NCBI GenBank assembly: GCA_033549065.1
Contig: JAWSUE010000009.1
Span: 66,841 to 130,840 of the forward strand
Direction: 5' to 3'
DNA length: 64,000 bases
DNA from: Bacillota bacterium
Lineage (GTDB): Bacteria; Bacillota; Dethiobacteria; DTU022
The notes beneath the pieces were generated by a model. That model saw only the letters and a program-made list of their open reading frames with translations, made no database searches and was not told the DNA's origin. Below, piece by piece: positions 51,303-64,000 of the stretch. The first letter of the stretch is position 1. Each line of letters opens with the position of its first letter. The position numbers and the translations under genes were made by a program.

Positions 51303-51316
51303 AGGTGAACACACTT

Positions 51317-52816
51317 ATGGACCCCTTTTCGAAACTACCCTTTCTCTGCGTCATCGGTACTTTGATCGCCTCTTTTTGTATGCCCGTTCTGGCGAGATGG
51401 AAAAGAGAATTCTGTGCTCCTCTGGCAACAGTTGTAACCGGCGCTGTTTTTTCTACCACTCTGGTAATCGGCTACCATATCAGGCAGGGTAACGTTATAC
51501 ATTATGCCGTATCCGGCTGGCAGCCCCCATGGGGCATCGAAATAGTTGTTGATTCTCTCTCCAGTATGATGCTTATGCTGCTCTCGGGATTGGCATTCGC
51601 AATACTTATCTACAGTTTCGCTGCTATCAAGCATGAATTGGAAAGTATGGTAACAGGATGGTACTATACGGCTTATATGCTCTGCCTGGCAGGGATGATG
51701 GGCCTGGTTATTACAAATGATATCTTTAATATGTATGTCTTTATAGAGGTTACAGGCTTGAGCGCCTGTGCCCTGGTTGCCAGTAAAGGCACCAGACTTT
51801 CTACAGAAGCTGCACTGAAGTACCTGCTTCTGGCAACAATCGGTTCGGGCTTTATCCTCTTCGGAATAGGTTTTATTTATATGATAACCGGTAACCTGAA
51901 CCTGACTTTTATCGCACAGGAACTTGCTCTGGTGAAGGATTCATACCCATTCCTGATCTGGACTGCACTCAGCTTCTTTGTCGTTGGCTTCGGAGTTAAA
52001 TCGGCGCTCTTTCCCCTCCACCTCTGGCTGCCTGATGCGCATTCTTCCGCTGCCTCTCCTTCAAGTGCAGTTTTATCCAGCCTGGTTGTGAAGGTCTATA
52101 TAATTGCTTTCCTGAAGATTTTATTTATCGCTTTCGGCCTGGAAATATTCCACGAAACTTTTATCCGGCATCTAATCCTGGTTTTAGCGATTATTGCCAT
52201 GCTTGCCGGTTCATTTTTTGCCTTTGTGCAGATCGAAACTAAAAGACGGCTTGCCTATTCTACCGTGGCCCAGATTGGTTATGTTTTCCTCGGTATAGGC
52301 CTGGGAACTCCCTGGGGTATGGCTGCCGGAATGCTTCATATTGTTGTCCACGCCTTTATGAAGACCTGTCTCTTCCTTTGTACAGGTGCAGTGTATTACC
52401 AGACCGGCCGCAAGCAGGTTAACCAGTTTTCAGGGCTGGGTTACAGTATGCCGATCACGATGGGAGCTTTCACTGTCGCTGCCTTCTCAATGGTCGGTAT
52501 TCCGCTTTTCGGCGGTTTTATCAGCAAATACGGACTTGCCCTGGGCAGTCTCGAAGCAGATTTACCGCTGGTAATTGTTGTAATAATTTTAAGCGGTTTG
52601 TTAAATGCAACATACTATTTCCCGATCATCGGTCAGGCATATTTTTCAATGGACGGGCATGATGATCATGACACAGCAAAAGTATTTAAGCGAGACCAGG
52701 TTCCATTGAGTATGTTGGTGCCGATTGTTCTTGTAGCCCTGGGTATCATTTATCTCGGAATTTTCCCGGGTGGTACACTTGATTTTATTAACCAGACTAT
52801 TACGCGTCTGCTCTAA
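51317..52816 (+). CDS. mnhD: MnhD/MrpD antiporter subunit
   Basis: A 499-residue antiporter subunit. Channel residues: Glu in MYVFIEVTGLSACALV, Lys in GFGVKSALFPLHLWLPDAHS and Lys in GGFISKYGLALGSLEAD. Its position after MnhC and the DAHSSAASPSSAVLSSLVVK stretch mark it as the true MrpD orthologue among the eight paralogues. The ATG at 51317 follows GAGG; a GTG at 51305 overlaps that site. Confidence 0.92.
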   Translation: MDPFSKLPFLCVIGTLIASFCMPVLARWKREFCAPLATVVTGAVFSTTLVIGYHIRQGNVIHYAVSGWQPPWGIEIVVDSLSSMMLMLLSGLAFAILIYSFAAIKHELESMVTGWYYTAYMLCLAGMMGLVITNDIFNMYVFIEVTGLSACALVASKGTRLSTEAALKYLLLATIGSGFILFGIGFIYMITGNLNLTFIAQELALVKDSYPFLIWTALSFFVVGFGVKSALFPLHLWLPDAHSSAASPSSAVLSSLVVKVYIIAFLKILFIAFGLEIFHETFIRHLILVLAIIAMLAGSFFAFVQIETKRRLAYSTVAQIGYVFLGIGLGTPWGMAAGMLHIVVHAFMKTCLFLCTGAVYYQTGRKQVNQFSGLGYSMPITMGAFTVAAFSMVGIPLFGGFISKYGLALGSLEADLPLVIVVIILSGLLNATYYFPIIGQAYFSMDGHDDHDTAKVFKRDQVPLSMLVPIVLVALGIIYLGIFPGGTLDFINQTITRLL

Positions 52817-52848
52817 ATTTAGATAAATATCGTCGGGAGGTGAACGCA

Positions 52849-53361
52849 GTGATTGAACGGATAAAAAGTGATCTATTGGGATCTCTCTTCATATTCTCAC
52901 TGCTGATGGTTTTCTGGCTTCTCATCTCAGCAAGCGTAAGCTGGCAGCATATCCTGGTCGGAGTCATATTCAGCGGTGCCCTGGCTGTTTTCTGGAGCAA
53001 TCTCCACATACCGGGAGAATATAAAACAAGTTTTACAATCAAACAGTTCTATCTGCTGATAGTTTACTTCATTAAACTCGGCATTGATATTGTGCTGGCA
53101 AACATCAACGTGGCCATGATCGTGTTGAACCCCCGACTCCCAATATCACCGGGCATCGTGATCATGCGTTGTGATCTTGAAAGAAGCCTGGTCAGAGTTT
53201 TATATGTTAATTCTATCACCCTGACTCCGGGAACAATCACCGTTGAGCTTGAAGATAACCTTTTGATCGTCCATGCCTTAACGGAAGAAGTTGCTCATGG
53301 GTTGGAAGAATGGCCCTTGTATCAGAGACTGATGGAACTGGAGGGTGAGTATAGAAAATGA
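52849..53361 (+). CDS. mnhE: MnhE/MrpE subunit
   Basis: A 170-residue protein with N-terminal helices and a cytoplasmic domain typical of MnhE: ASVSWQHILVGVIFSGALAV, IVLNPRLPISPGIV and NSITLTPGTITVEL. GTG at 52849 has GGGAGG eight bases upstream. Its stop overlaps the mnhF start (ATGA), showing coupling. Confidence 0.93.
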   Translation: MIERIKSDLLGSLFIFSLLMVFWLLISASVSWQHILVGVIFSGALAVFWSNLHIPGEYKTSFTIKQFYLLIVYFIKLGIDIVLANINVAMIVLNPRLPISPGIVIMRCDLERSLVRVLYVNSITLTPGTITVELEDNLLIVHALTEEVAHGLEEWPLYQRLMELEGEYRK

Positions 53362-53624
53362 TTACTTCCATTCTATATGGAGTTGTTGTAGTTTTATTGA
53401 TTATATCTTTGCTGGCTATAGCCCGCGCATACAGCGGCCCAACAGCGCTGGACAGAATCGTTGCCATGAATATGATTACTACCAACGTCGTTCTCATCAT
53501 CTTGATCTTTTCGTTCATCGATAAAAGTTATTATTACATAGACGTAGCCTTTGTTTTTGTATTGGGGGTTTTTATCGGAACCCTCTGTATACTGAAGCTA
53601 CTGCGTGAAGGACATATTATTTAA
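53358..53624 (+). CDS. mnhF: MnhF/MrpF subunit
   Basis: An 88-residue three-helix protein with ARAYSGPTALDRIVAMNMIT, the MnhF signature, and a conserved membrane Asp (IDVAFVFVLGVFIGTLCILK). It overlaps mnhE by four bases. Confidence 0.93.
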   Translation: MITSILYGVVVVLLIISLLAIARAYSGPTALDRIVAMNMITTNVVLIILIFSFIDKSYYYIDVAFVFVLGVFIGTLCILKLLREGHII

Positions 53625-53661
53625 TCACAGGTTTTATCTGCCTGGGATTGGAGTGATTCGA

Positions 53662-54057
53662 ATGACCCTTTTACAATATATAGCCTTATTTTTTATTTTT
53701 GGTGGTCTCTTCTTTTTAATAGTCGGCGTGGTCGGATTGATCCGCCTGCCCGATGTATTTACCCGCATGCATGCCATGGGTAAGTGCGACACCCTGGGGA
53801 CCGGGATGATCCTGATCGGTTTAATGCTCTTTATCAGCGATATTACCAACGTTACCAAGCTGATCTTAATTTTGATCATGATCGCCACTATCAACCCGGT
53901 GATCACTCACCTTATCGCTAAAACAGCGTATAACAGGGGTACACCGATGGCTGAAGGCAGTTTTCTGATAAATGACTACGTAGCAGCGCAGCGCCGCAGA
54001 AGAAGACATCAGCTTGATGAAATGATGAGTAATGAGAAAGGGGGAGAAAGCATCTGA
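53662..54057 (+). CDS. mnhG: MnhG/MrpG subunit
   Basis: A 131-residue protein: GLIRLPDVFTRMHAMGKCDTLG is diagnostic of MnhG, followed by two helices and a basic, charged C-terminal tail (QRRRRRH) longer than usual. The ATG at 53662 has TGGAG upstream; an earlier in-frame start at 53605 would overlap mnhF and add 19 poor residues. The stop overlaps the next start by one base. Confidence 0.92.
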   Translation: MTLLQYIALFFIFGGLFFLIVGVVGLIRLPDVFTRMHAMGKCDTLGTGMILIGLMLFISDITNVTKLILILIMIATINPVITHLIAKTAYNRGTPMAEGSFLINDYVAAQRRRRRHQLDEMMSNEKGGESI

Positions 54058-54296
54058 TGATTGACGTTCTTATGGTCTTGTTACTGCTGGTATTAATCGT
54101 TACCGCATTTTCAATTTTTGTTTTTAACGATCTCCTCTACATCGTTATTATCTTTGGCGCATACAGTATGGTCATGTCGTTGATCTGGCAGCAGCTGAAC
54201 TCTCCCGACCTTGCTATCACCGAAGCTGCTGTTGGTATCGGTATGACAGTATTAATGGTTACCGTTGTAACCAAAGTGGGGAGGCGCCCTGAATGA
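54057..54296 (+). CDS. MbhD-like subunit (DUF4040, MrpA C-terminal domain)
   Basis: A 79-residue three-helix protein equal to the DUF4040 part of MrpA, found as a separate MbhD/MbsD subunit in membrane-bound hydrogenases: NDLLYIVIIFGAYSMVMSLI and NSPDLAITEAAVGIGMTVLM. The membrane Glu of LAITEAAVG is thought to take part in proton transfer. It overlaps both neighbours by one and four bases. Confidence 0.9.
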   Translation: MIDVLMVLLLLVLIVTAFSIFVFNDLLYIVIIFGAYSMVMSLIWQQLNSPDLAITEAAVGIGMTVLMVTVVTKVGRRPE

Positions 54297-54613
54297 TCGG
54301 CAAGATAATTTTTTATACGATGACTGTCATCCTGGTTGGTATGATATCTTTCATGCTGATGCTTGCAGTTACAGAGATGCCTGTCTACGGAAATATCGAC
54401 AATCCTTCCAATAATTATGTTTATGAGCGTTATGTTTATAAAGGTGTCGAAGAAAGCGGCGGCACCAATATGGTTGCCAATATTCTTCTCGACTACAGGG
54501 GCTACGATACCCTGTTGGAATCTACGGTTCTGTTCTCAGGGGTTATAGCAATTATGTTGGTATGGGGTACCAGCACAGCCAACCATAAAGAGAAAGAGGA
54601 CAAAAACCACTAA
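54293..54613 (+). CDS. MbhE-like subunit (MrpA C-terminal end)
   Basis: A 106-residue protein with two helices and the conserved linker TNMVANILLDYRGYDTLLES, which in MrpA connects the DUF4040 domain to the MnhB-like end. As a separate gene it matches MbhE. Together with the preceding gene it replaces the C-terminal third of MrpA. Confidence 0.87.
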   Translation: MIGKIIFYTMTVILVGMISFMLMLAVTEMPVYGNIDNPSNNYVYERYVYKGVEESGGTNMVANILLDYRGYDTLLESTVLFSGVIAIMLVWGTSTANHKEKEDKNH

Positions 54614-54647
54614 TTTATCTAACCTGTCGGGAGAGGACGAATCCAAG

Positions 54648-56138
54648 ATGGACTATACGGAATATATATTGTACCTGCCTCTTTTCATGATTGTCTTTCC
54701 AATATTGGGAGCACTAATTACCGGATTGGCTAAAGAAAATAATGATCGTCTCCGGAATCCTCTGGCCGTAATCGTCAGCCTGATCAGCGCAGTTGCAATG
54801 GTAATTATCCTCTTCCACTATTATTACAATGGAAGTTGGGAATTACTCTTACATCAAATAACCCCCGGATTGGAAATAAAGCTTCGGGTCGATCCTTTAG
54901 CCGCTCTTTTTGGCGGTACTGCTGGAATACTCTGGTTTTTCTCGGTTGTTTACTCCACAGGGTATATGGCCCATGAACATAACCGGCGGCGTTACTTCAT
55001 TTTTTACCTTCTTTCCCTGGGTATGACCATGGGTATTGCCCTATCGGCAAACCTGCTTACTCTGTATATCTTTTACGAGTTTTTAACTATTTTCACCTAC
55101 CCGCTCGTTGTTCATGAAGGAAATGATGAGGCCAAAAAAGCCGGTATCAAGTATATCATTTACAGCTTTGTCGGAGCCGGACTAATATTAATCGGATTGA
55201 TTATCACCTATGGAAACATGGGAACCCTCGAGTTCGTCAGAGGTGGTATTGTCAATGTTTCCTCAGGATCCCTGCTGTTATGGAGATTGACTTTTGTCTC
55301 TTTTATTCTGGGATTCGGAGTTAAAGCGGCAGTGATGCCTCTCCACGCCTGGCTGCCTGCTGCAATGGCTGCACCCACCCCGGTCAGCGCTCTTCTCCAT
55401 GCCGTCGCTGTTGTCAAATCGGGTGTATTCGGCATACTGAGGGTAATGTACTCTATATTCGGGATCACTGCTTTAATTGGCCTGCAAATGGGTTATTTTG
55501 TGGCCGGTCTGGTTTCCGTGACAATTCTTGTTGCCTCCATTATAGCCATGCAGCAGGATGTTCTTAAGCGTCGGCTCGCCTTTTCAACTATCAGCCAGCT
55601 CGGCTATATAACTCTCGGCGCAGGTCTTTTTAGCTCAATCGGGCTGGCTGGAGGGCTACTGCACATCATCAATCATGCACTGCTCAAAATAACTCTCTTT
55701 TTCTGTGCCGGGGCAATTATCACCGTTACAGGCAAAAAGAAAATCAGCGAACTTAACGGTCTTGGAAAGCAGATGCCGCTTACCATGATCGCATTTGCCA
55801 TAGCCAGTATAGGAATGATCGGAATTCCTCCGGTAAACGGGTTTATCTCCAAATGGTACCTGATCCAGGGTAGCCTGGAAAGCGGAGCCTGGATTTTTAT
55901 AGTAGTTTTAATCGGAAGCGCTCTTTTGAATGCCGCTTATTTCCTGCCCATTGTCATAAACGCTTTCTTTAAAGAGGGGGATTTCAAGGCGGTTAAAGGA
56001 CCTGAAGCACCACTTACCATGCTAATTCCAATATTAGTACTGGTAGCCGGATGCCTTATAGTCGGGACTAACCTGCAGCTGACAGTGCCATTTTTCAACG
56101 ATATCGCAAACTACCTGTTCTACGCAGGAGGTAATTAA
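54648..56138 (+). CDS. NuoN/MrpD-type antiporter subunit (paralogue of the 46589-48061 product)
   Basis: A 496-residue subunit with Glu in IFYEFLTIFTYPLVVH, Lys in GFGVKAAVMPLHAWLP and Lys in NGFISKWYLIQGSLESG. PTPVSALLHAVAVVKSGVFG and the FFKEGDF region are nearly shared with the minus-strand copy. It is ninth in the plus operon, after the MbhE-like gene, a place where a standard Mrp operon has already ended. Confidence 0.9.
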   Translation: MDYTEYILYLPLFMIVFPILGALITGLAKENNDRLRNPLAVIVSLISAVAMVIILFHYYYNGSWELLLHQITPGLEIKLRVDPLAALFGGTAGILWFFSVVYSTGYMAHEHNRRRYFIFYLLSLGMTMGIALSANLLTLYIFYEFLTIFTYPLVVHEGNDEAKKAGIKYIIYSFVGAGLILIGLIITYGNMGTLEFVRGGIVNVSSGSLLLWRLTFVSFILGFGVKAAVMPLHAWLPAAMAAPTPVSALLHAVAVVKSGVFGILRVMYSIFGITALIGLQMGYFVAGLVSVTILVASIIAMQQDVLKRRLAFSTISQLGYITLGAGLFSSIGLAGGLLHIINHALLKITLFFCAGAIITVTGKKKISELNGLGKQMPLTMIAFAIASIGMIGIPPVNGFISKWYLIQGSLESGAWIFIVVLIGSALLNAAYFLPIVINAFFKEGDFKAVKGPEAPLTMLIPILVLVAGCLIVGTNLQLTVPFFNDIANYLFYAGGN

Positions 56139-56141
56139 ACC

Positions 56142-58139
56142 ATGCCCCAGGAAACAATTTCATACTTACCATTGATTGCCGTACTTGTTCCTCTCTTCTC
56201 TTTTGTAATGATTACCTGTGCCAAACAGGTTGCCTGGTGGCGCAACAGTTGGTCTTTAATCGGATCAGCTGGAACACTGGTCGCAGTTGTCATGATGTAT
56301 CCCGATATATCAAAAGGCATTACACTTGTCCTGGACTTAGAGATGATTGTAACCCCCCTCGGTCTTACTTTCAGGGTTGACGGCCTCGGTTTCCTGATCG
56401 CCCTTCTTGCCTCATTTATCTGGTTGATGGCTACTGTGTTCGCCCTGGAATATATGAACCATGAGCATGACCAGGGACGATTCTTCATATTTTTCATGCT
56501 TACGCTTGCAGGAACAGTTGGCGTGCCCCTGGCTGGAGATCTATTAACGCTTTTGCTGTTCTTCGAATTAATGTCGCTGGCTTCATATGTTTTGGTTATT
56601 CATACCCAGACCCGGGAAGCATTCAGCGCCGGCCATATCTATCTTTATCTTGGCATTTTCGGCGGAATGTGTCTGCTTACCGGAATCGGACTTATTTATT
56701 TTAACACCGGTACTTTGTCCATAACCCAGCTGCCCGGTTTGGTAGAAGGTATTAATAACTATCTATTATTAGCCGGACTGCTGCTGATTATCGGGTTCGG
56801 GATCAAGGCTGGTATGGTGCCCCTGCATATCTGGCTTCCACTGGCTCACCCGGTAGCACCGGCACCTGCCAGCGCACTCCTTTCGGGGATCATGATCAAA
56901 ACGGGTGCATACGGGATAATCAGAACTTTAACCATGCTTTACACTCCGGATGCAAACCTCCTCTCGATGGAAAATCTGGCAGCCGGTGTAGAGAGCCTCT
57001 GGTCAGTTGTATCTGATGCAGGATTTGTGATCATCTGGCTGGGAATTATAACCATGTTTTTTGGAGCATGCATTGCTCTCCTCCAGAACAACATTAAAAA
57101 AATGTTAGCCTGCAGCAGTATCAGCCAAATTGGTTATATCATAATGGGTATAGGCGTTGCCGCCTATTTGGGATATGAAGGGGCAATGGGACTTGGAGGT
57201 TCTGCCTATCATATTATTAACCATGCCTTCTTTAAATCCACTCTCTTCCTTGCTGCCGGAGCAATTGTTTATATGACCGGTGAACTGGATATGAATAAAC
57301 TTGGCGGATTAAGATATAGGATGCCCTTCACCTCTGTAGTGGTACTGATTGCATCGCTCGGTATAGTGGGTATGCCCCTTTTTAACGGTTATGCCAGTAA
57401 AACCCTGCTGCACCACGCAATTGTCGAGGCTTACGAACATCACCATGTCTACTCGCTTTTTATCGCTGAAAAAATATTCACCCTGACCAGCGCGGGAACA
57501 GTCTGTTACTTCCTCAAGTTTCTTTACTTCACATTCTGGAGACCTGCTCCTGACAGCCTGCCTGAAGTGAGTAAAGAACCCCTTTTGATGAAGGTCGGGA
57601 TGGGGACCTTAGCTGCAAGTATGCTCTTTATCGGTTTTTCACCAAACCTGATCCTTAACAAATTAGTTGTTCCATCATTGAGCACCTTTACTCTTGATTC
57701 TTACCTGGTTAGTTACCTGGCCAAGAGCAACTTCTGGAAGTTTGAAGATCTCGGAGCCGTAGCCATTGCCCTGGTACTGGGTGCAGGCTTTTTCTATATA
57801 GCTCAGAAGACGAATGTATATCGCCTTCGTGTTCCTTACTGGCTCGGGCTAGAATTTCTTGGTAGCCTGGTTGGCAAGTTAGCAATAATCTTCTGGATCA
57901 TAATTACCCTACCCTTCGTAGCCATTCAGAACATCTTAAACAGGCTGTTTGAAATACTTTACCGTAGAATATTTACATTCCTTCAATCGGTAGATTACCG
58001 GCCAGGTCAAAAGGCAATCTTCAGGTCGATCAATATAAGCAACATCGATTTCGATATGATGCTCGTGATCGTTTCCTTCAGTGTAATTTTAATCGTTGTA
58101 TTTTATCTGCGCTTTGGGCTGAAGATATTTAATTTATAA
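56142..58139 (+). CDS. NuoL-type antiporter subunit, long form (copy 3)
   Basis: A 665-residue subunit with Glu in LFFELMSLASYVLVIH, Lys in GFGIKAGMVPLHIWLPLAHP and Lys in NGYASKTLLHHAIVEAYEHH. A C-terminal arm ends DYRPGQKAIFRSINISNIDFD and a last helix, as in the two minus-strand long copies. It closes the plus operon, three bases after the previous gene, and is followed by a terminator. Confidence 0.9.
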   Translation: MPQETISYLPLIAVLVPLFSFVMITCAKQVAWWRNSWSLIGSAGTLVAVVMMYPDISKGITLVLDLEMIVTPLGLTFRVDGLGFLIALLASFIWLMATVFALEYMNHEHDQGRFFIFFMLTLAGTVGVPLAGDLLTLLLFFELMSLASYVLVIHTQTREAFSAGHIYLYLGIFGGMCLLTGIGLIYFNTGTLSITQLPGLVEGINNYLLLAGLLLIIGFGIKAGMVPLHIWLPLAHPVAPAPASALLSGIMIKTGAYGIIRTLTMLYTPDANLLSMENLAAGVESLWSVVSDAGFVIIWLGIITMFFGACIALLQNNIKKMLACSSISQIGYIIMGIGVAAYLGYEGAMGLGGSAYHIINHAFFKSTLFLAAGAIVYMTGELDMNKLGGLRYRMPFTSVVVLIASLGIVGMPLFNGYASKTLLHHAIVEAYEHHHVYSLFIAEKIFTLTSAGTVCYFLKFLYFTFWRPAPDSLPEVSKEPLLMKVGMGTLAASMLFIGFSPNLILNKLVVPSLSTFTLDSYLVSYLAKSNFWKFEDLGAVAIALVLGAGFFYIAQKTNVYRLRVPYWLGLEFLGSLVGKLAIIFWIIITLPFVAIQNILNRLFEILYRRIFTFLQSVDYRPGQKAIFRSINISNIDFDMMLVIVSFSVILIVVFYLRFGLKIFNL

Positions 58140-58245: not shown

Positions 58246-59223
58246 TTACTTCTTCTCTGCCATCGGAACAGCGACAACTTTAATTTTACCAAACTGCGAA
58301 CGGGCAGTGTAATGTTCAATCATGGGTACAAAAGCATTCATGATCAGGATGGAATAAGCAACCCCTTCCGTAATCATAAAGCCAACCCTGAAAAGTACTA
58401 TTAAAGCGCCGATAGCAATTCCGTAGATGATCTTACCATTATCGGTCATTGGACTGGTAACCCAATCAGTAGCCATGAAGAATGCACCGATTATTATACC
58501 ACCCGTTACCAGGTGTAAAAGCGGATTTTCTCCAACAATCAGATTTAAAATAATCATGGTTCCCAATATTGATACAGGGATCCTCCAGCCAATATGTTTT
58601 TTATAAAACAGGTATGCCGCACCGATAAGCAGGGCAAACGGCGATACCTCCGAAAGCGCTCCGGCAGGAAAGGCAAAAAAGAGCTGGCTTATCGGCGGCA
58701 TTTCCAGACCTGCCCTCATCATTGCCAATGGAGTGGCCTGTGTAATTGTATCCAGCGGCCCGAGGTGTATGGCCAGCGGTTGAAACCACTGGTTTATATA
58801 GGCATAAGCGGGGGCCAGAATAATTAATGCCACACGGCCAAATAATGCAGGGTTAAAACGGTTCCAACCCAGACCACCAGCCAGTTCCTTAGCTATACCG
58901 ACAGCAATAAATGTTGCCAGAGCAGCCTTATACCATGGAGTGGTTGCCTGGAACAAGAGGGCAACAAATAAGCCGGTCAGCAAAGCGCTCCAGTCGTGTA
59001 GAGCGGGTTTCCTGTGCATTAACTTCTTAAAAAGAAGTTCAGTCAAAACTGCAGTTACCAGACATACCGCGATAGTCAGTGCGGCATAATACTGGAAGAA
59101 ATATATGGATACCAGCGTGACCGGCATTAGAGCGATGAAAACATCACGCATAGCATATGTAACTGTTTCGTAACTCTTAATGTGAGGAGATGGTGTTACA
59201 ACAAACTTCTGGGCATCACTCAC
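58246..59223 (-). CDS. rnfD: RnfD-like membrane flavoprotein subunit
   Basis: A 325-residue NqrB/RnfD-family protein with about ten helices, which in Rnf and Nqr carries covalent FMN and takes part in sodium or proton movement. The FMN-linking Thr is present at about residue 164 in DTITQATPLAMM, and GLGWNRFNPALFGRVAL and HLVTGGIIIGAFFMATDWVT are family-typical. GTG start after GGAGG. It is the last gene of the fdh-rnf operon; no rnfG, E, A or B follows, because the neighbour is the convergent antiporter operon. Confidence 0.92.
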   Translation of the reverse strand: MSDAQKFVVTPSPHIKSYETVTYAMRDVFIALMPVTLVSIYFFQYYAALTIAVCLVTAVLTELLFKKLMHRKPALHDWSALLTGLFVALLFQATTPWYKAALATFIAVGIAKELAGGLGWNRFNPALFGRVALIILAPAYAYINQWFQPLAIHLGPLDTITQATPLAMMRAGLEMPPISQLFFAFPAGALSEVSPFALLIGAAYLFYKKHIGWRIPVSILGTMIILNLIVGENPLLHLVTGGIIIGAFFMATDWVTSPMTDNGKIIYGIAIGALIVLFRVGFMITEGVAYSILIMNAFVPMIEHYTARSQFGKIKVVAVPMAEKK

Positions 59224-59256
59224 TACTAAAATACCTCCTTTTCCCCATAAATTTAA

Positions 59257-60573
59257 TTACCGCTTGTTCCTCATCTGAATGATCAGCGGTTTTGTGCGCT
59301 GAACCAGCTGGGTGATTGGTCTCTTCGACGGACATACATAGGCGCATATGCCGCATTCAATACAATCCATTGTGTTCCAAAACTCAGCCTCTTCAATCAT
59401 GCCCGCTTCACAGTAAATGCTGATCTGATTCGGATAGAGCAACATGGGGCAATGCTCAACACATTTACAGCAGCGAACACAATCGGAATACTCCATATCT
59501 TCGAGTGCCATATCCGGAGGTAGCACAACTACACCTGTTGTTCCTTTAACTACCGGAACATCAAGATTTTCCTGTGCTCTTCCCGTCATAGGACCACCAA
59601 CAACAACCTTTGCCGGTTCGGCAACTATCCCCCCACACTCTTCAATTAAATGCCTGAGAGGAGTACCTATTTTCACCAACAGGTTCTGAGGATCTTTAAT
59701 ATTCTGACCTGTTACCGCAACCACTCTCTCTATGAGTGGTTTGTTAAACTTAACCGCCTCATAAATGGCAACGCAGGTCCCAACATTCTGGATAATACAG
59801 CCCACATCAAAGGGTAGCCCACCGGAAGGAATTTCCCGGTCAAGCGCTGCTTTAACCAGGTGCTTTTCCGAACCCTGAGGGTACTTAGTCGGCATTCTTA
59901 ACAAAACAATCCCTGGATCATCATTCTCCTGACGAACAGCCTCTATTGCATCATCCTTGTTATCTTCGATGCAGATAAAAGCCTGCTCAACACCGAGCAT
60001 TTTCATGAGCAGCTTAACGCCCTGAAGCAGTTCCTTTGCTTTTTCAAGCATGATCCGATGATCACAGGTTAAATATGGCTCACATTCACAGCCGTTAACA
60101 ATCAAAGTGTCCACTTTTTTATCCGGCGGTGGGCTCAGTTTAACCGCTGTCGGAAAAGCTGCACCACCCATTCCTACAATACCGGCTTCTTTCACTGCAT
60201 TAATTATATCTTCTTTAGTGACTTTTTCTAGATCGTTATCGGCGAGTTTAAGTTCATCCTGTTCCTTATCGACAGCGATTACAATACTATCAATCATCTG
60301 CCCGGTGACAAATGGCCTGGGTTCAATAGCTGTAACTGTACCGGAAAGGCTGGCGTGGACTGGAGCACTGACAAACTTATCGGTTGCCCCGATTTTCTGT
60401 CCTGCCTTAACTTTATCACCAACTTTTACCAAAGGCTCATTTGGAGCGCCTGTATGCTGTAAAAGAGGAATGATTATCTCTTCAGGCAGAGATGCTTTTT
60501 TAATCTCTTTATGCTCTGTAAAGCTTTTATAGTGGGGTATATGAATCCCACCAAAAAACTGTTTTACTTCCAC
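59257..60573 (-). CDS. rnfC: RnfC-like electron-transfer subunit
   Basis: A 438-residue soluble subunit with an N-terminal barrel-sandwich part (PNEPLVKVGDKVKAGQKIG), a NuoF-like flavin/NAD fold (GMGGAAFPTAVKLSPP, NGCECEPYLTCD), an SLBB region, and two [4Fe-4S] motifs (CVRCCKCVEHCP and CIECGICAYVCPSKRP). In Rnf it is the NADH:ferredoxin face of the complex. GTG start after GGGAGG. It lies directly between the formate dehydrogenase ferredoxin subunit and rnfD, so it may take electrons from formate rather than, or as well as, NADH or ferredoxin. Confidence 0.93.
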   Translation of the reverse strand: MEVKQFFGGIHIPHYKSFTEHKEIKKASLPEEIIIPLLQHTGAPNEPLVKVGDKVKAGQKIGATDKFVSAPVHASLSGTVTAIEPRPFVTGQMIDSIVIAVDKEQDELKLADNDLEKVTKEDIINAVKEAGIVGMGGAAFPTAVKLSPPPDKKVDTLIVNGCECEPYLTCDHRIMLEKAKELLQGVKLLMKMLGVEQAFICIEDNKDDAIEAVRQENDDPGIVLLRMPTKYPQGSEKHLVKAALDREIPSGGLPFDVGCIIQNVGTCVAIYEAVKFNKPLIERVVAVTGQNIKDPQNLLVKIGTPLRHLIEECGGIVAEPAKVVVGGPMTGRAQENLDVPVVKGTTGVVVLPPDMALEDMEYSDCVRCCKCVEHCPMLLYPNQISIYCEAGMIEEAEFWNTMDCIECGICAYVCPSKRPITQLVQRTKPLIIQMRNKR

Positions 60574-60591
60574 TTGATTTCACCTCCCGGT

Positions 60592-61377
60592 TTATTTTGA
60601 TTTAGCTTTAGCTTCCTCAACGCGCTTGCTCTGTGAACGGTTGGTCCATAAGCCCAGGGCAACAGCAATAACGACGAATACGCGCAATGGAGCATAGATT
60701 GTATTCCAAAAACGGGTCTGCAGTGGCACCTGTGGATCTGCCGGAAAACCATATTTTTCAGGTTTATCAGCCAGGACATAAAGCATCCCTGTACCGCCAA
60801 CTTCATCTAAGCCATACAAAGTAGCATTAACTTTGCCTGCTGCCTTTAAATGCTCAACCCTTGCCCTTCCATTCGAAATCAGTTCACGACTGTCACCGAA
60901 TGTAATTGAGCCGGTTGGGCAGGCATTGGCGCATGCCGGTTTTAATCCGCTCTGAAGCCGGTCATGACAGAAAGTACACTTTCGAGCCTTATTGGCCAGG
61001 CGATCAAACCCTATTACATGGAAAGGGCAGGCGGCAACACAGTAGTTGCAACCAATACACTTAACTTCATCCACCTTAACGGTATCATATTCAGTGCGGT
61101 AGATTGCCCCTGCCGGACAGGCCATCATGCAGGCAGCATCGCTGCAGTGCATGCAGCCCTGCTTTACCATCAACCAGTCCATCCCACCATTTTCACCATC
61201 ATGTTCGCGGTACATAATTCGCATCCAAGTAATAGATGAAAGGCCAGGTGGATTTTCATATGTGCCGGTAAAGGTTGTATCCTCGGCGGGATTCTGGTTC
61301 CATTGTTTACATGCAACCTGGCACCCGCGACATCCTATACATTTGGAGGCATCGATTAAACAAATTGGTTTAGCCAT
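60592..61377 (-). CDS. Formate dehydrogenase iron-sulfur subunit (FdnH-like)
   Basis: A 261-residue four-cluster ferredoxin subunit: CIGCRGCQVACKQWN, CMHCSDAACMMACP, CIGCNYCVAACPFH and CTFCHDRLQSGLKPACANACP. Near the C terminus one hydrophobic helix (about 228-245, APLRVFVVIAVALGLW) and a basic tail resemble the FdnH anchor. In FdnGHI this subunit hands electrons to a cytochrome b; no such gene follows. Instead rnfC starts 18 bases later. It lies immediately after the catalytic subunit. Confidence 0.93.
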   Translation of the reverse strand: MAKPICLIDASKCIGCRGCQVACKQWNQNPAEDTTFTGTYENPPGLSSITWMRIMYREHDGENGGMDWLMVKQGCMHCSDAACMMACPAGAIYRTEYDTVKVDEVKCIGCNYCVAACPFHVIGFDRLANKARKCTFCHDRLQSGLKPACANACPTGSITFGDSRELISNGRARVEHLKAAGKVNATLYGLDEVGGTGMLYVLADKPEKYGFPADPQVPLQTRFWNTIYAPLRVFVVIAVALGLWTNRSQSKRVEEAKAKSK

Positions 61378-64000
61378 TTAAACTGCCCTCCTTACGTTGC
61401 AGAGGAATGCCTTATATTCGGGGATTGTTGTATTAGGATCTCCGACCGATGGGCTCAGGTCATTGGTTACCGCACCTGTGCTCATCCCTTTGAAGCCCCA
61501 GTGCCATGGCATTCCGACAACATGCTTTTTCACGCCGTTGATCATCATCGGTTTGAAACGCTTGGTTACACAGGCTTTTGCTTCAATACTATCCTGTTCG
61601 CCATTTTTAAAGAGCCTCTTACTTTCTATTTGCACTTTATCCCCGTTGCTGACACCAAGTTCCTCTGCCAGTTCTTCACTAATTTCAATAAAAAGTTCCG
61701 GCATCAATTCGTTCAGCCAGGGGAGGTTTCGGGTTACAATACCCGTCTGGTAATGTTCAACAATCCGGTAAGTAGTCATAATGAAGGGATACCTTTCCCT
61801 CTCTTCATCTGTTTCCACGGTATGGTCTTCGTAGAACCTCTGACTGGCCGGATTATAGGTAGCTCTGGGATATAGCAGGTTAGCTACCGGGCTGTCAGCA
61901 GGCTCAAAGTGAGCCGGGAAGGGCCCGTCACGCAGAGCATTTACGCTATACAATCTTCCAACACCTTCGGGCAGCATGATAAATGGATTTTCTGTCGACT
62001 GCTCGAATGTATAGCTTCCGGGTATGTCAGGGACATCGTTACCGACCCATTTCTGCTGGGTTTCATCCCACCAAATTACAGGCTTATCGGGATTCCAGGG
62101 TTTACCTTCAAGGTCACATGATGCCCGGTTATAAATGATCCTGCGGTTAAGCGGCCAGGCAAAAGCCCAGTCCTTATTGAAGCCCAACCCTTCCCGTTCT
62201 TTAATCCTCTTCTTGGTGGCGGGATTCTCCAGGTTATTATAGTATCCGCTGTAGAGCCAGTTGCCGCAGGCTGTGGAACCATCGGCCTGTAGACCGACAA
62301 AGTTGGTAACGAGAGAACCATCGGCAACACGATAGCCGTTCAGCTCCTTGCAGACTTTTACAATATCAATTTCACCATCAGGGCCATCGTAATCCCAGGC
62401 AATATTGGTTACCGCCTCAGATACTGTTCCTCCTTCAGACTGGTAAAGCGCCTGGACCCGTTTGAACAGTTCGTTTACGATCCAGAGATCAGCTTTAGCT
62501 ACTCCTGGGGGTTCCTGGGCTTTCCATGCCCACTGGATCCAGCGTCCACTGTTAGCCTTGCTGCCTTCTCTTTCATATCCTGAAGCAGCGGGGAGAATAA
62601 AGACCTCGGTGTCAATTTCTGCCGGATTCATACCGGGAGCCTGCCAGAAAGAAGCAGTTTCATTTTCAAACATATCGACCGAGAGCAACCACTTCAGGTT
62701 CTTCTGGTAACTGCGTTTTGCACTGGCCGATGGACCGGAAACAGCCGGGTTATCTGCCCAGCAGATCATACCTTCAACTTTTCCTTCACCCATATCCCTG
62801 TACTGGGCAATATGTGAATGATCCAGACCGTCCAGTTTGGGGAACCACTGATAACCAAAATCGTTGGCTGGGGTAGCCTTGTTACCGTAGAAAGCTTTCA
62901 ACAGGCTGACCATGTATTTCGGTCTGTTGGTCCACCAACCGGCAGGAGGAGTTGTTGCATTATAAGCCTCGAGGGTAGGTGTCGAAGCCTGCTGAGGTGT
63001 AGGCATATATCCCGGAATAATGTGATAAAGCATGGCCATGTCGGTTGATCCCTGAACATTTGATTGACCACGCTGGGCATTAACCCCACCGCCGCATATT
63101 CCCATGTTACCGAGTAAGAGCTGAACAACAGCTATTGCTCTGACATTCTGGGCTCCGTGTGTAAACTGAGTGATACCCATGGCATACATGATATTACCGG
63201 CTTTACCGGCCTGGCCGGTACTGCTGTATAACTCGTAAGACTGCCTTAGAACCTCAGGGTCAGCTCCGGTAATTTTGCTGATATTTTCCAGGGTATATTT
63301 GCTGTAGTGCTTTTTCATCAACTGCAGAACACAGTTGGGATCCTCAAATGTGGGGTCTTTAAGGACATTACCTTCCTCGTCACGCTGGTACATCCAGGTT
63401 GCCTGGTTATAACTTGTAGCCTTACGAACCTGATCATCAAAGGCACCCGAGAATAAACCGGTTTCTTCATCAAAAGAATATTCTGCGTTGACCAGGTAGG
63501 AAGCATTAGTATAGTTTTCAACATATTCCTTGTGGTACAGTTCGTTTTCGAGGATATAATGCATCAAACCGCCAAGGTAAGCAATGTTTGTTCCCGGGCG
63601 AATTTGAACATGAAGATCTGCAACAGCAGCGGTCCTTGAAACCCTTGGATCAACAACAAGTAGTTTTGCACCTTTTGTGTCACGGGCTTTTTGAATCCAT
63701 TTCATTGAGATGGGGTGATTTTCAGCGGTGTTGCCACCGATATTCATAAAGACATCGCTGTGCTGATAATCGTTCCAGTGATTGGTCATTGCCCCTCTTC
63801 CGAATGTGGCGCCAAGACCGGCGACCGTAGAAGAGTGTCAGAGACGGGCGCAGTGATCAATATTGATCATACCCAAAGCCCTTCCCATCTTGTGAAACAG
63901 GTAGTTTTCTTCATCTGTGCAGAAAGCGCTGCCGAGCCAGGAAATAGCTTCGGTGCGGTTAACCGTTACCCTCTGCCCTCCGACATCAACCGATTCTACA
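61378..64000 (-). CDS. Formate dehydrogenase catalytic subunit, FdnG type, selenocysteine-containing (N terminus beyond window)
   Basis: Molybdenum or tungsten bis-pterin enzyme that oxidises formate to CO2. Read with the in-frame TGA at 63838-63840 as selenocysteine, the frame stays open to the window edge: DHCARL[12 protein letters not shown], then [17 protein letters not shown] and [14 protein letters not shown], close to E. coli FdnG. The visible part has 874 residues; a full FdnG is about 1015, so roughly 140 N-terminal residues (first cluster, possible Tat signal) lie outside. The C-terminal molybdopterin-dinucleotide-binding domain ends near 61378. An ATG 17 codons after the TGA is internal, not a start. 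Confidence 0.95.
63793..63840 (-). promoter_or_regulatory. SECIS element for selenocysteine insertion
   Basis: Directly after the UGA the mRNA can fold into a lower stem CUCUUC/GAAGAG and an upper stem GCC/GGC closing the apical loop GGUCUU (63814-63819). A GGUCU loop at this distance is the known bacterial SelB-binding pattern. Coding sense continues through the element. Confidence 0.85.

Follow-up and report, generated by a model that had tools for sequence, protein, structure and literature searches.

A formate dehydrogenase operon ending in RnfC and RnfD suggests a quinone-free conduit between external formate and internal NAD(H)

In the Rnf complex, electrons pass from the cytoplasm to the periplasmic side of the membrane through RnfA/E to RnfG, and return through RnfD and RnfC to nicotinamide adenine dinucleotide (NAD+) (PMC11889175, PMC9588780, PMC12174285). 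In the RnfD protein of A. woodii, T156 carries flavin mononucleotide (FMN) in a pocket that opens outwards, and N123 and D249 bind riboflavin near the inner side (PMC11889175). Genes for RnfC and RnfD beside a formate dehydrogenase (FDH) have been noted once before, in the syntrophic acetate oxidiser unFirm_1, where they were read as a truncated Rnf of an incomplete genome; the metaproteome contained its RnfC as well as the FDH encoded alongside (Frank et al. 2016, PMC5080403). Here we analyse such an arrangement at one end of a 64,000-nucleotide stretch of DNA (‘the window’; contig JAWSUE010000009.1, positions 66,841 to 130,840, assembly GCA_033549065.1) from a Bacillota bacterium of the lineage Dethiobacteria. 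We consider it probable, judging from gene content and sequence, that its products FdhA, FdhB, RnfC and RnfD form a single membrane complex that would act as a reversible, quinone-free conduit between formate outside the cell and NAD+ inside.

The operon has the order fdhE-fdhA-fdhB-rnfC-rnfD (Table 1). The window end cuts fdhA, and reading on past it along the same contig (C9) recovers the gene start and, directly upstream with 9 bp between, fdhE. The original prediction had described FdnG- and FdnH-type genes followed at short distances by rnfC and rnfD, in the place usually held by the cytochrome b subunit FdnI, and both the spacing (18 bp between fdhB and rnfC, 33 bp between rnfC and rnfD) and strong family matches bear this out. 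Only the C and D genes of an rnf operon are present, rnfG, rnfE, rnfA and rnfB all being missing from the operon. No FdnI-type cytochrome b is encoded in the operon, and no PF01292 protein was found in the genome.

The signals and cofactor residues expected of each subunit can be followed along the operon. FdhA carries the twin-arginine translocation (Tat) motif SRRSFLK, and a Tat motif is found in 25 of 28 related loci. The fdhA frame is broken by a single TGA; at this site, TGA occurs in 26 of the 28 related loci and Cys in the other two, and the genome encodes a selenocysteine tRNA (tRNA-Sec; 72 bits, above the Rfam cut-off). Since the hairpin resembling a selenocysteine insertion sequence (SECIS) is not significant alone (z-scores of -1.8 and -1.1), the selenocysteine (Sec) assignment rests on the conserved TGA and the tRNA. 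FdhA is thereby a Tat-exported, Sec-containing protein of the FdnG type found in formate dehydrogenase N (FDH-N). FdhB has four clusters and a C-terminal membrane tail (approximately residues 223-241 by hydropathy), as does FdnH, and its alignment with 1kqf_B runs through the tail; its score of 231 is below the FDH-beta equivalog cut-off of 335. RnfC was predicted to retain a flavin fold and two clusters, and indeed has the NuoF-like FMN/NAD domain and both CxxCxxCxxxC motifs (two [4Fe-4S]), with a close match to C. tetanomorphum RnfC (7zc6_C; E 1e-132, 446 bits). RnfD has ten hydrophobic segments by hydropathy, the predicted FMN-linking Thr (Thr164, in DTITQAT(164)P) and the riboflavin-site residues Asn124 and Asp253; T164, N124 and D253 align with T156, N123 and D249 of A. 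woodii RnfD, which is also the top PDB match to the predicted fold (9eri_D, TM-score 0.81).

We gathered the loci around RnfD homologues from relatives and from named genomes, giving 105 distinct RnfD rows. These comprise 26 canonical operons, every one with RnfE and/or RnfA, and 79 rows of a second type, RnfD2 (with its partner RnfC2), none of which has RnfE or RnfA. The partners of RnfD2 are fdhA in 50 rows, an FdhB-like subunit only in nine, a PhsA-like molybdoenzyme in nine, a Tat-exported [NiFe] hydrogenase in two and an RnfG-like protein only in one; the remaining eight rows are contig ends. The molybdoenzymes, mostly accompanied by a TorD-like chaperone, resemble the thiosulfate/polysulfide reductase PhsA, with scores below that family's cut-off. 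A C-terminal membrane tail after ‘YGLPxxPxV’ is shared by the FdhB-like subunits, those of the PhsA-like systems among them (61 of 70 above the hydropathy threshold), and the loci that lack such a subunit all end within the operon, with the RnfG case as the sole exception. The fdhAB-rnfCD arrangement, whose conservation the original prediction had proposed to check, recurs in dozens of genomes, and because in some of these the proteins are only ~45-60% identical, the recurrence exceeds what chance would give. Gene order varies as well (FdhAB-CD, CD-FdhAB and FdhA-FdhE-CD-FdhB), so the linkage has been rearranged and is not one frozen inherited block. RnfC-RnfD pairs whose linked 4x[4Fe-4S] subunit has a membrane tail are found in Bacillota, Dehalococcoidia and Actinomycetota, with hosts that include metagenome-assembled genomes (MAGs) of Syntrophomonadaceae and Halobacteroidaceae, Tindallia, the isolate Anoxynatronum buryatiense, and MAGs of Dehalococcoidia and Actinomycetota. 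Among the top matches that were classified, at least 8 of 398 genomes sampled across the phylum carry the pair. One near-complete genome (G148) combines an FDH-RnfCD set and a further, FeS-RnfCD set with a complete rnf.

RnfD2 and RnfC2 are separate from the canonical subunits in phylogeny also. RnfD2 forms one clade, both in the large tree (SH-like approximate likelihood ratio test, SH-aLRT, 97) and in a tree with A. woodii and C. tetanomorphum (bootstrap 99, SH-aLRT 96), and RnfC2 likewise stands apart from canonical RnfC (SH-aLRT 99). Forcing the window RnfD together with the native RnfD of the same genome costs 272 log-likelihood units (approximately unbiased test, p-AU 2.6e-47). Glu113 is present in 77 of 77 RnfD2 sequences and in none of the 28 canonical ones, a comparison set that is mostly from Bacillota. 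RnfC2 has a fixed Thr330, where canonical RnfC has a fixed Met, and an invariant extra Cys170 beside the ECEP residues of its FMN domain. Among 30 loci collected later, all eight with Glu113 (five of them previously unused) lack RnfE/A nearby, whereas RnfE/A lies beside 21 of the 22 without Glu113, the 22nd being at a contig end. The window operon, with Glu113 and no RnfE/A alongside, fits the proposed RnfCD2 conduit subfamily.

What has been kept and what has been lost in RnfD2 can be compared with published contacts, which we took from the text of the structure papers and not from coordinates. Among the 77 sequences, Asn124 and Asp253 are invariant, Thr164 is found in 75 with Ser in the other two, and the N-terminal arm retains Pro13 (77) and His14 (75); in C. 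tetanomorphum this arm is buried in RnfC (PMC9588780). In that structure, helix V of RnfD touches the terminal helix of RnfA/E, and Ser284 touches N5 of FMN (PMC9588780). Ser136-Trp137, at the end of helix V, is present in 28 of 28 canonical RnfD proteins and lost in 77 of 77 RnfD2 proteins, and the residue contacting FMN N5 (Ser/Thr/Cys in the canonical proteins) has become Ala in 72 of 77. Such a pattern would be expected of an RnfD2 that still binds RnfC and the flavins but has given up contact with RnfA/E and RnfG.

The pair in the window is additional to an ordinary Rnf. In this genome of 2.39 Mb (97.8% complete), a full rnfCDGEAB lies on contig C10 and a full nqrABCDEF on C9. The original prediction would have been refuted by a complete rnf operon without C and D genes of its own; the rnf set here has both, so the window RnfC/RnfD pair is an extra one. 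Each of the four Rnf-Nqr domain genes of the genome is part of either the complete rnf or the complete nqr set, leaving no spare RnfA/E pair. Neither NrfD nor MqnA was found in the genome; there are two UbiA-family prenyltransferases. Acetyl-CoA synthase is present, and the host therefore likely has the Wood-Ljungdahl pathway.

The original prediction had suggested electron flow from formate to RnfC and RnfD, and the conservation, the clade structure and the retained cofactor residues support this well. In the route we propose, Tat-exported FdhA would oxidise formate outside the cell and hand the electrons to the four clusters of membrane-tailed FdhB, which would take the place of RnfG and feed the FMN bound covalently to RnfD close to the outer surface. 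From there, electrons would pass by the riboflavin of RnfD into RnfC, with its two clusters and its FMN, and on to NAD+. RnfC and RnfD would thus serve as the return limb of the U-shaped Rnf path, freed from the RnfB-A/E-G limb that carries ferredoxin electrons and the Na+ gate. Electrons alone would cross the membrane, giving an electrogenic redox half-loop with neither quinone nor cytochrome: formate oxidation outside, with two electrons moving inward, would build membrane potential, and in reverse the membrane potential would push electrons from NADH outward to make formate, a possible means of NADH disposal in syntrophy. The potentials of formate (~-0.43 V) and NAD (~-0.32 V) are ~0.1 V apart, which is below a typical membrane potential, and therefore the complex should be reversible; low formate outside should favour its production from NADH, which would suit syntrophic hosts.

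Several points weigh against this proposal or limit it. The physical contact between FdhB and RnfD is predicted as part of the presumed complex, and the NAD site of RnfC2 is assigned through family similarity. The complete Nqr may imply that the cell uses quinones. The RnfC-RnfD-FdhB trio sometimes occurs with no catalytic gene nearby (L062, L205). Finally, a Na+ route through RnfD was proposed by Vitt 2022 (PMC9588780), and likewise for NqrB (NqrB section of PMC12174285), although this is disputed by Kumar 2025 (PMC11889175); these are arguments from other complexes. On that basis FdhAB-RnfCD could itself be a Na+ pump, in which the electron step from FMN to riboflavin drives Na+ through RnfD on top of the charge movement. 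The residues Glu192, Asp253 and Phe249 of the proposed RnfD path are retained and Mrp antiporters adjoin the operon; many of the hosts are also, to judge from their site codes, soda-lake bacteria. We nevertheless regard pumping as unlikely: Kumar et al. place the Na+ gate in RnfA/E and give RnfD a role in electron transfer only, no Na+ path was found in A. woodii RnfD, and variants in the proposed residues grew normally (PMC11889175). The step from formate to NAD+ would leave little energy for extra pumping. Because the proposed gate, RnfA/E, is absent, we infer that the complex does not pump ions, and under the view of Kumar et al. a pure electron wire is predicted. The original suggestion of coupling to ion movement is hence not upheld in the form of ion pumping; charge movement by electrons is expected instead.

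Two further explanations concern the partners of the pair. RnfC and RnfD might be displaced or duplicated subunits of an ordinary Rnf, working with RnfGEAB encoded elsewhere and only incidentally linked to FDH, given that rnfCDGEAB is present in the same genome and general models still recognise the pair as RnfC/RnfD. This reading, raised in the original prediction together with a genome check for rnfGEAB, is highly improbable: it is largely refuted by the native C and D genes and the tree test, the canonical residues on the helix that contacts RnfA/E are lost, and linkage to FdhB-type subunits recurs across phyla. It is also improbable, if less so, that the inner partner of RnfC2 is ferredoxin or another low-potential carrier in place of NAD(H), which would make a formate:ferredoxin or hydrogenase-linked wire. 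In genome G190 (L202 9992-13015), a 1007-residue fusion places RnfC behind a group A [FeFe] hydrogenase, adjoining RnfD2, an FeS subunit and a PhsA-like molybdoenzyme, so the inner end of the wire is exchangeable too, and the invariant Cys170 could be taken in the same sense; against this, the NuoF-like FMN domain is complete in the window RnfC2, which is closely similar to an RnfC that reduces NAD, that of C. tetanomorphum, and there is no RnfB, the subunit at which ferredoxin docks. (In another locus, L125, RnfD and RnfC seemed to be fused; this is an artefact, as a stop codon separates the two frames.)

With somewhat less assurance than for the window operon itself, we favour a wider reading, in which RnfC-RnfD with a tailed four-cluster subunit would be a general quinone-free conduit. 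It would be a third type of anchor beside cytochrome b and NrfD/PsrC, linking reactions of formate, H2 or sulfur compounds outside the cell with NAD(H) inside it, or even with an [FeFe] hydrogenase there, and its half-loop would allow reverse electron transport by membrane potential alone. If our proposal is true, periplasmic metalloenzymes are connected directly with cytoplasmic NAD(H) in one respiratory complex, with no quinones or cytochromes in between, and some syntrophs or acetogens could have a concrete route for converting NADH to formate or H2 outside the cell. An RnfD (NqrB homologue) without RnfA/E would also be a natural test of the disputed role of RnfD, as a sodium pump or as an electron carrier alone.

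Table 1. Features of the operon and the adjoining genes, in window positions
Feature	Position	Strand	Evidence or description
rnfD (rnfD2)	58246..59223	-	PF03116 E 1.8e-94; 10-transmembrane flavoprotein
rnfC (rnfC2)	59257..60573	-	RnfC_N E 3e-38; Complex1_51K E 4e-52; 4Fe-4S domain
fdhB	60592..61377	-	FdnH of E. coli (1kqf_B) E 8e-62; FdnH-like four-cluster ferredoxin subunit
fdhA	61378..64000, on to window-equivalent 64452 (gene start)	-	FDH-N alpha TIGR01553 E 6e-282, above cut-off
In-frame TGA in fdhA (selenocysteine codon)	63838..63840	-	Conserved TGA and tRNA-Sec
SECIS-like hairpin directly 3' of the fdhA TGA	63790..63837	-	RNA fold -15.4 kcal/mol; z -1.8, weak alone
mrp genes (multisubunit Na+/H+ antiporter)	51305..58139	+	Convergent with rnfD; not part of the complex

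The next genes are, as originally described, convergent with the operon and encode the Mrp antiporter. A functional link to this antiporter had been suggested; the adjacency of mrp to fdh-rnfCD is kept in 10 loci of one subclade, that of the window, and the link consists of adjacency only. Elsewhere in the genome, a second set of mrp genes directly follows the complete rnfCDGEAB (L007 7010-17999, contig C10), a Rnf-Mrp supercluster that is also found in G148 (L204 5703-17001). Just upstream of nqrA there are apparently genes for two RnfG/NqrC-like proteins, of which one has an N-terminus like that of a lipoprotein (L006 10359-11722, C9), as judged by eye and by similarity. An RnfD-like fragment between xanthine dehydrogenase-like and CBS-domain genes (L004 1318-1881; contig C8 ~114070-114630) was rejected as a fourth working gene, being a decayed C-terminal piece.

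Some loci in other genomes depart from the common arrangement. Two (L065 7019-10128 and L135, from Dethiobacter sp. CROMO) encode an RnfG-like protein, RnfC2 and a divergent RnfD2 with Glu113, without E, A, B or FdhB, and may represent a form of this conduit that ends in a flavin. One contig (L058 1-9288) has a tandem pair of fdh/rnfD units, with the hydrogenase maturation genes hypA and hypB downstream. In L066 (1-9898) and L067, fdhE-fdhAB-rnfCD is immediately preceded by a set of genes for a PhsA-like molybdoenzyme and a TorD-like chaperone of its own, and thus two conduit-linked systems can be neighbours.

The subfamily, its modularity, the mechanism and the hydrogenase and molybdoenzyme partners appear to be undescribed in the openly accessible literature that we searched. 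In the portions of a 2025 Rnf/Nqr review (PMC12174285) that related terms bring up, the fdh-rnfCD arrangement is not mentioned; searches of the open literature returned nothing on Geothermincolia and Rnf together, or on FDH and ‘Rnf-like’ together, and ‘RnfC and RnfD’ returned unrelated work only. ‘Ca. Syntrophonatronum’ was described as having RnfC, RnfD and two RnfG only (PMC6295475), and ‘Ca. Contubernalis’ as having an exported FDH whose beta subunit is tailed, together with a full Rnf encoded elsewhere (PMC10608574). The two-gene linkage of unFirm_1 is, by its published description, the same as that in the window; no subfamily, topology or mechanism was proposed there.

Compared with Rnf (A. 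woodii 9eri, C. tetanomorphum 7zc6), the window operon encodes the same RnfC and RnfD folds, with the FMN-linking Thr, the riboflavin residues, the FMN/NAD module and the two clusters, and the electron path from the outer face to NAD+ would be the Rnf return limb. Unlike Rnf, it has no RnfG, E, A or B, its subunits belong to a separate clade marked by RnfD Glu113, RnfC Thr330 and the loss of Ser136-Trp137, and electrons would enter from an exported metalloenzyme rather than from ferredoxin. It shares with FDH-N (FdnGHI, 1kqf) the Tat-exported Sec-containing FdnG, the FdnH with its membrane tail and the logic of the redox half-loop, but RnfD and RnfC with NAD replace the cytochrome b FdnI and menaquinone. 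In Na+-translocating NADH:quinone oxidoreductase (Na+-NQR), NqrB is the homologue of RnfD, and by alignment Vibrio NqrB also has Glu at the Glu113 position; however, NqrA is without cofactors and NqrB reduces quinone, whereas here an RnfC with FMN and clusters is retained. By the defining features tested, the product of the operon is neither Rnf nor FDH-N, and works like a recombination of both.

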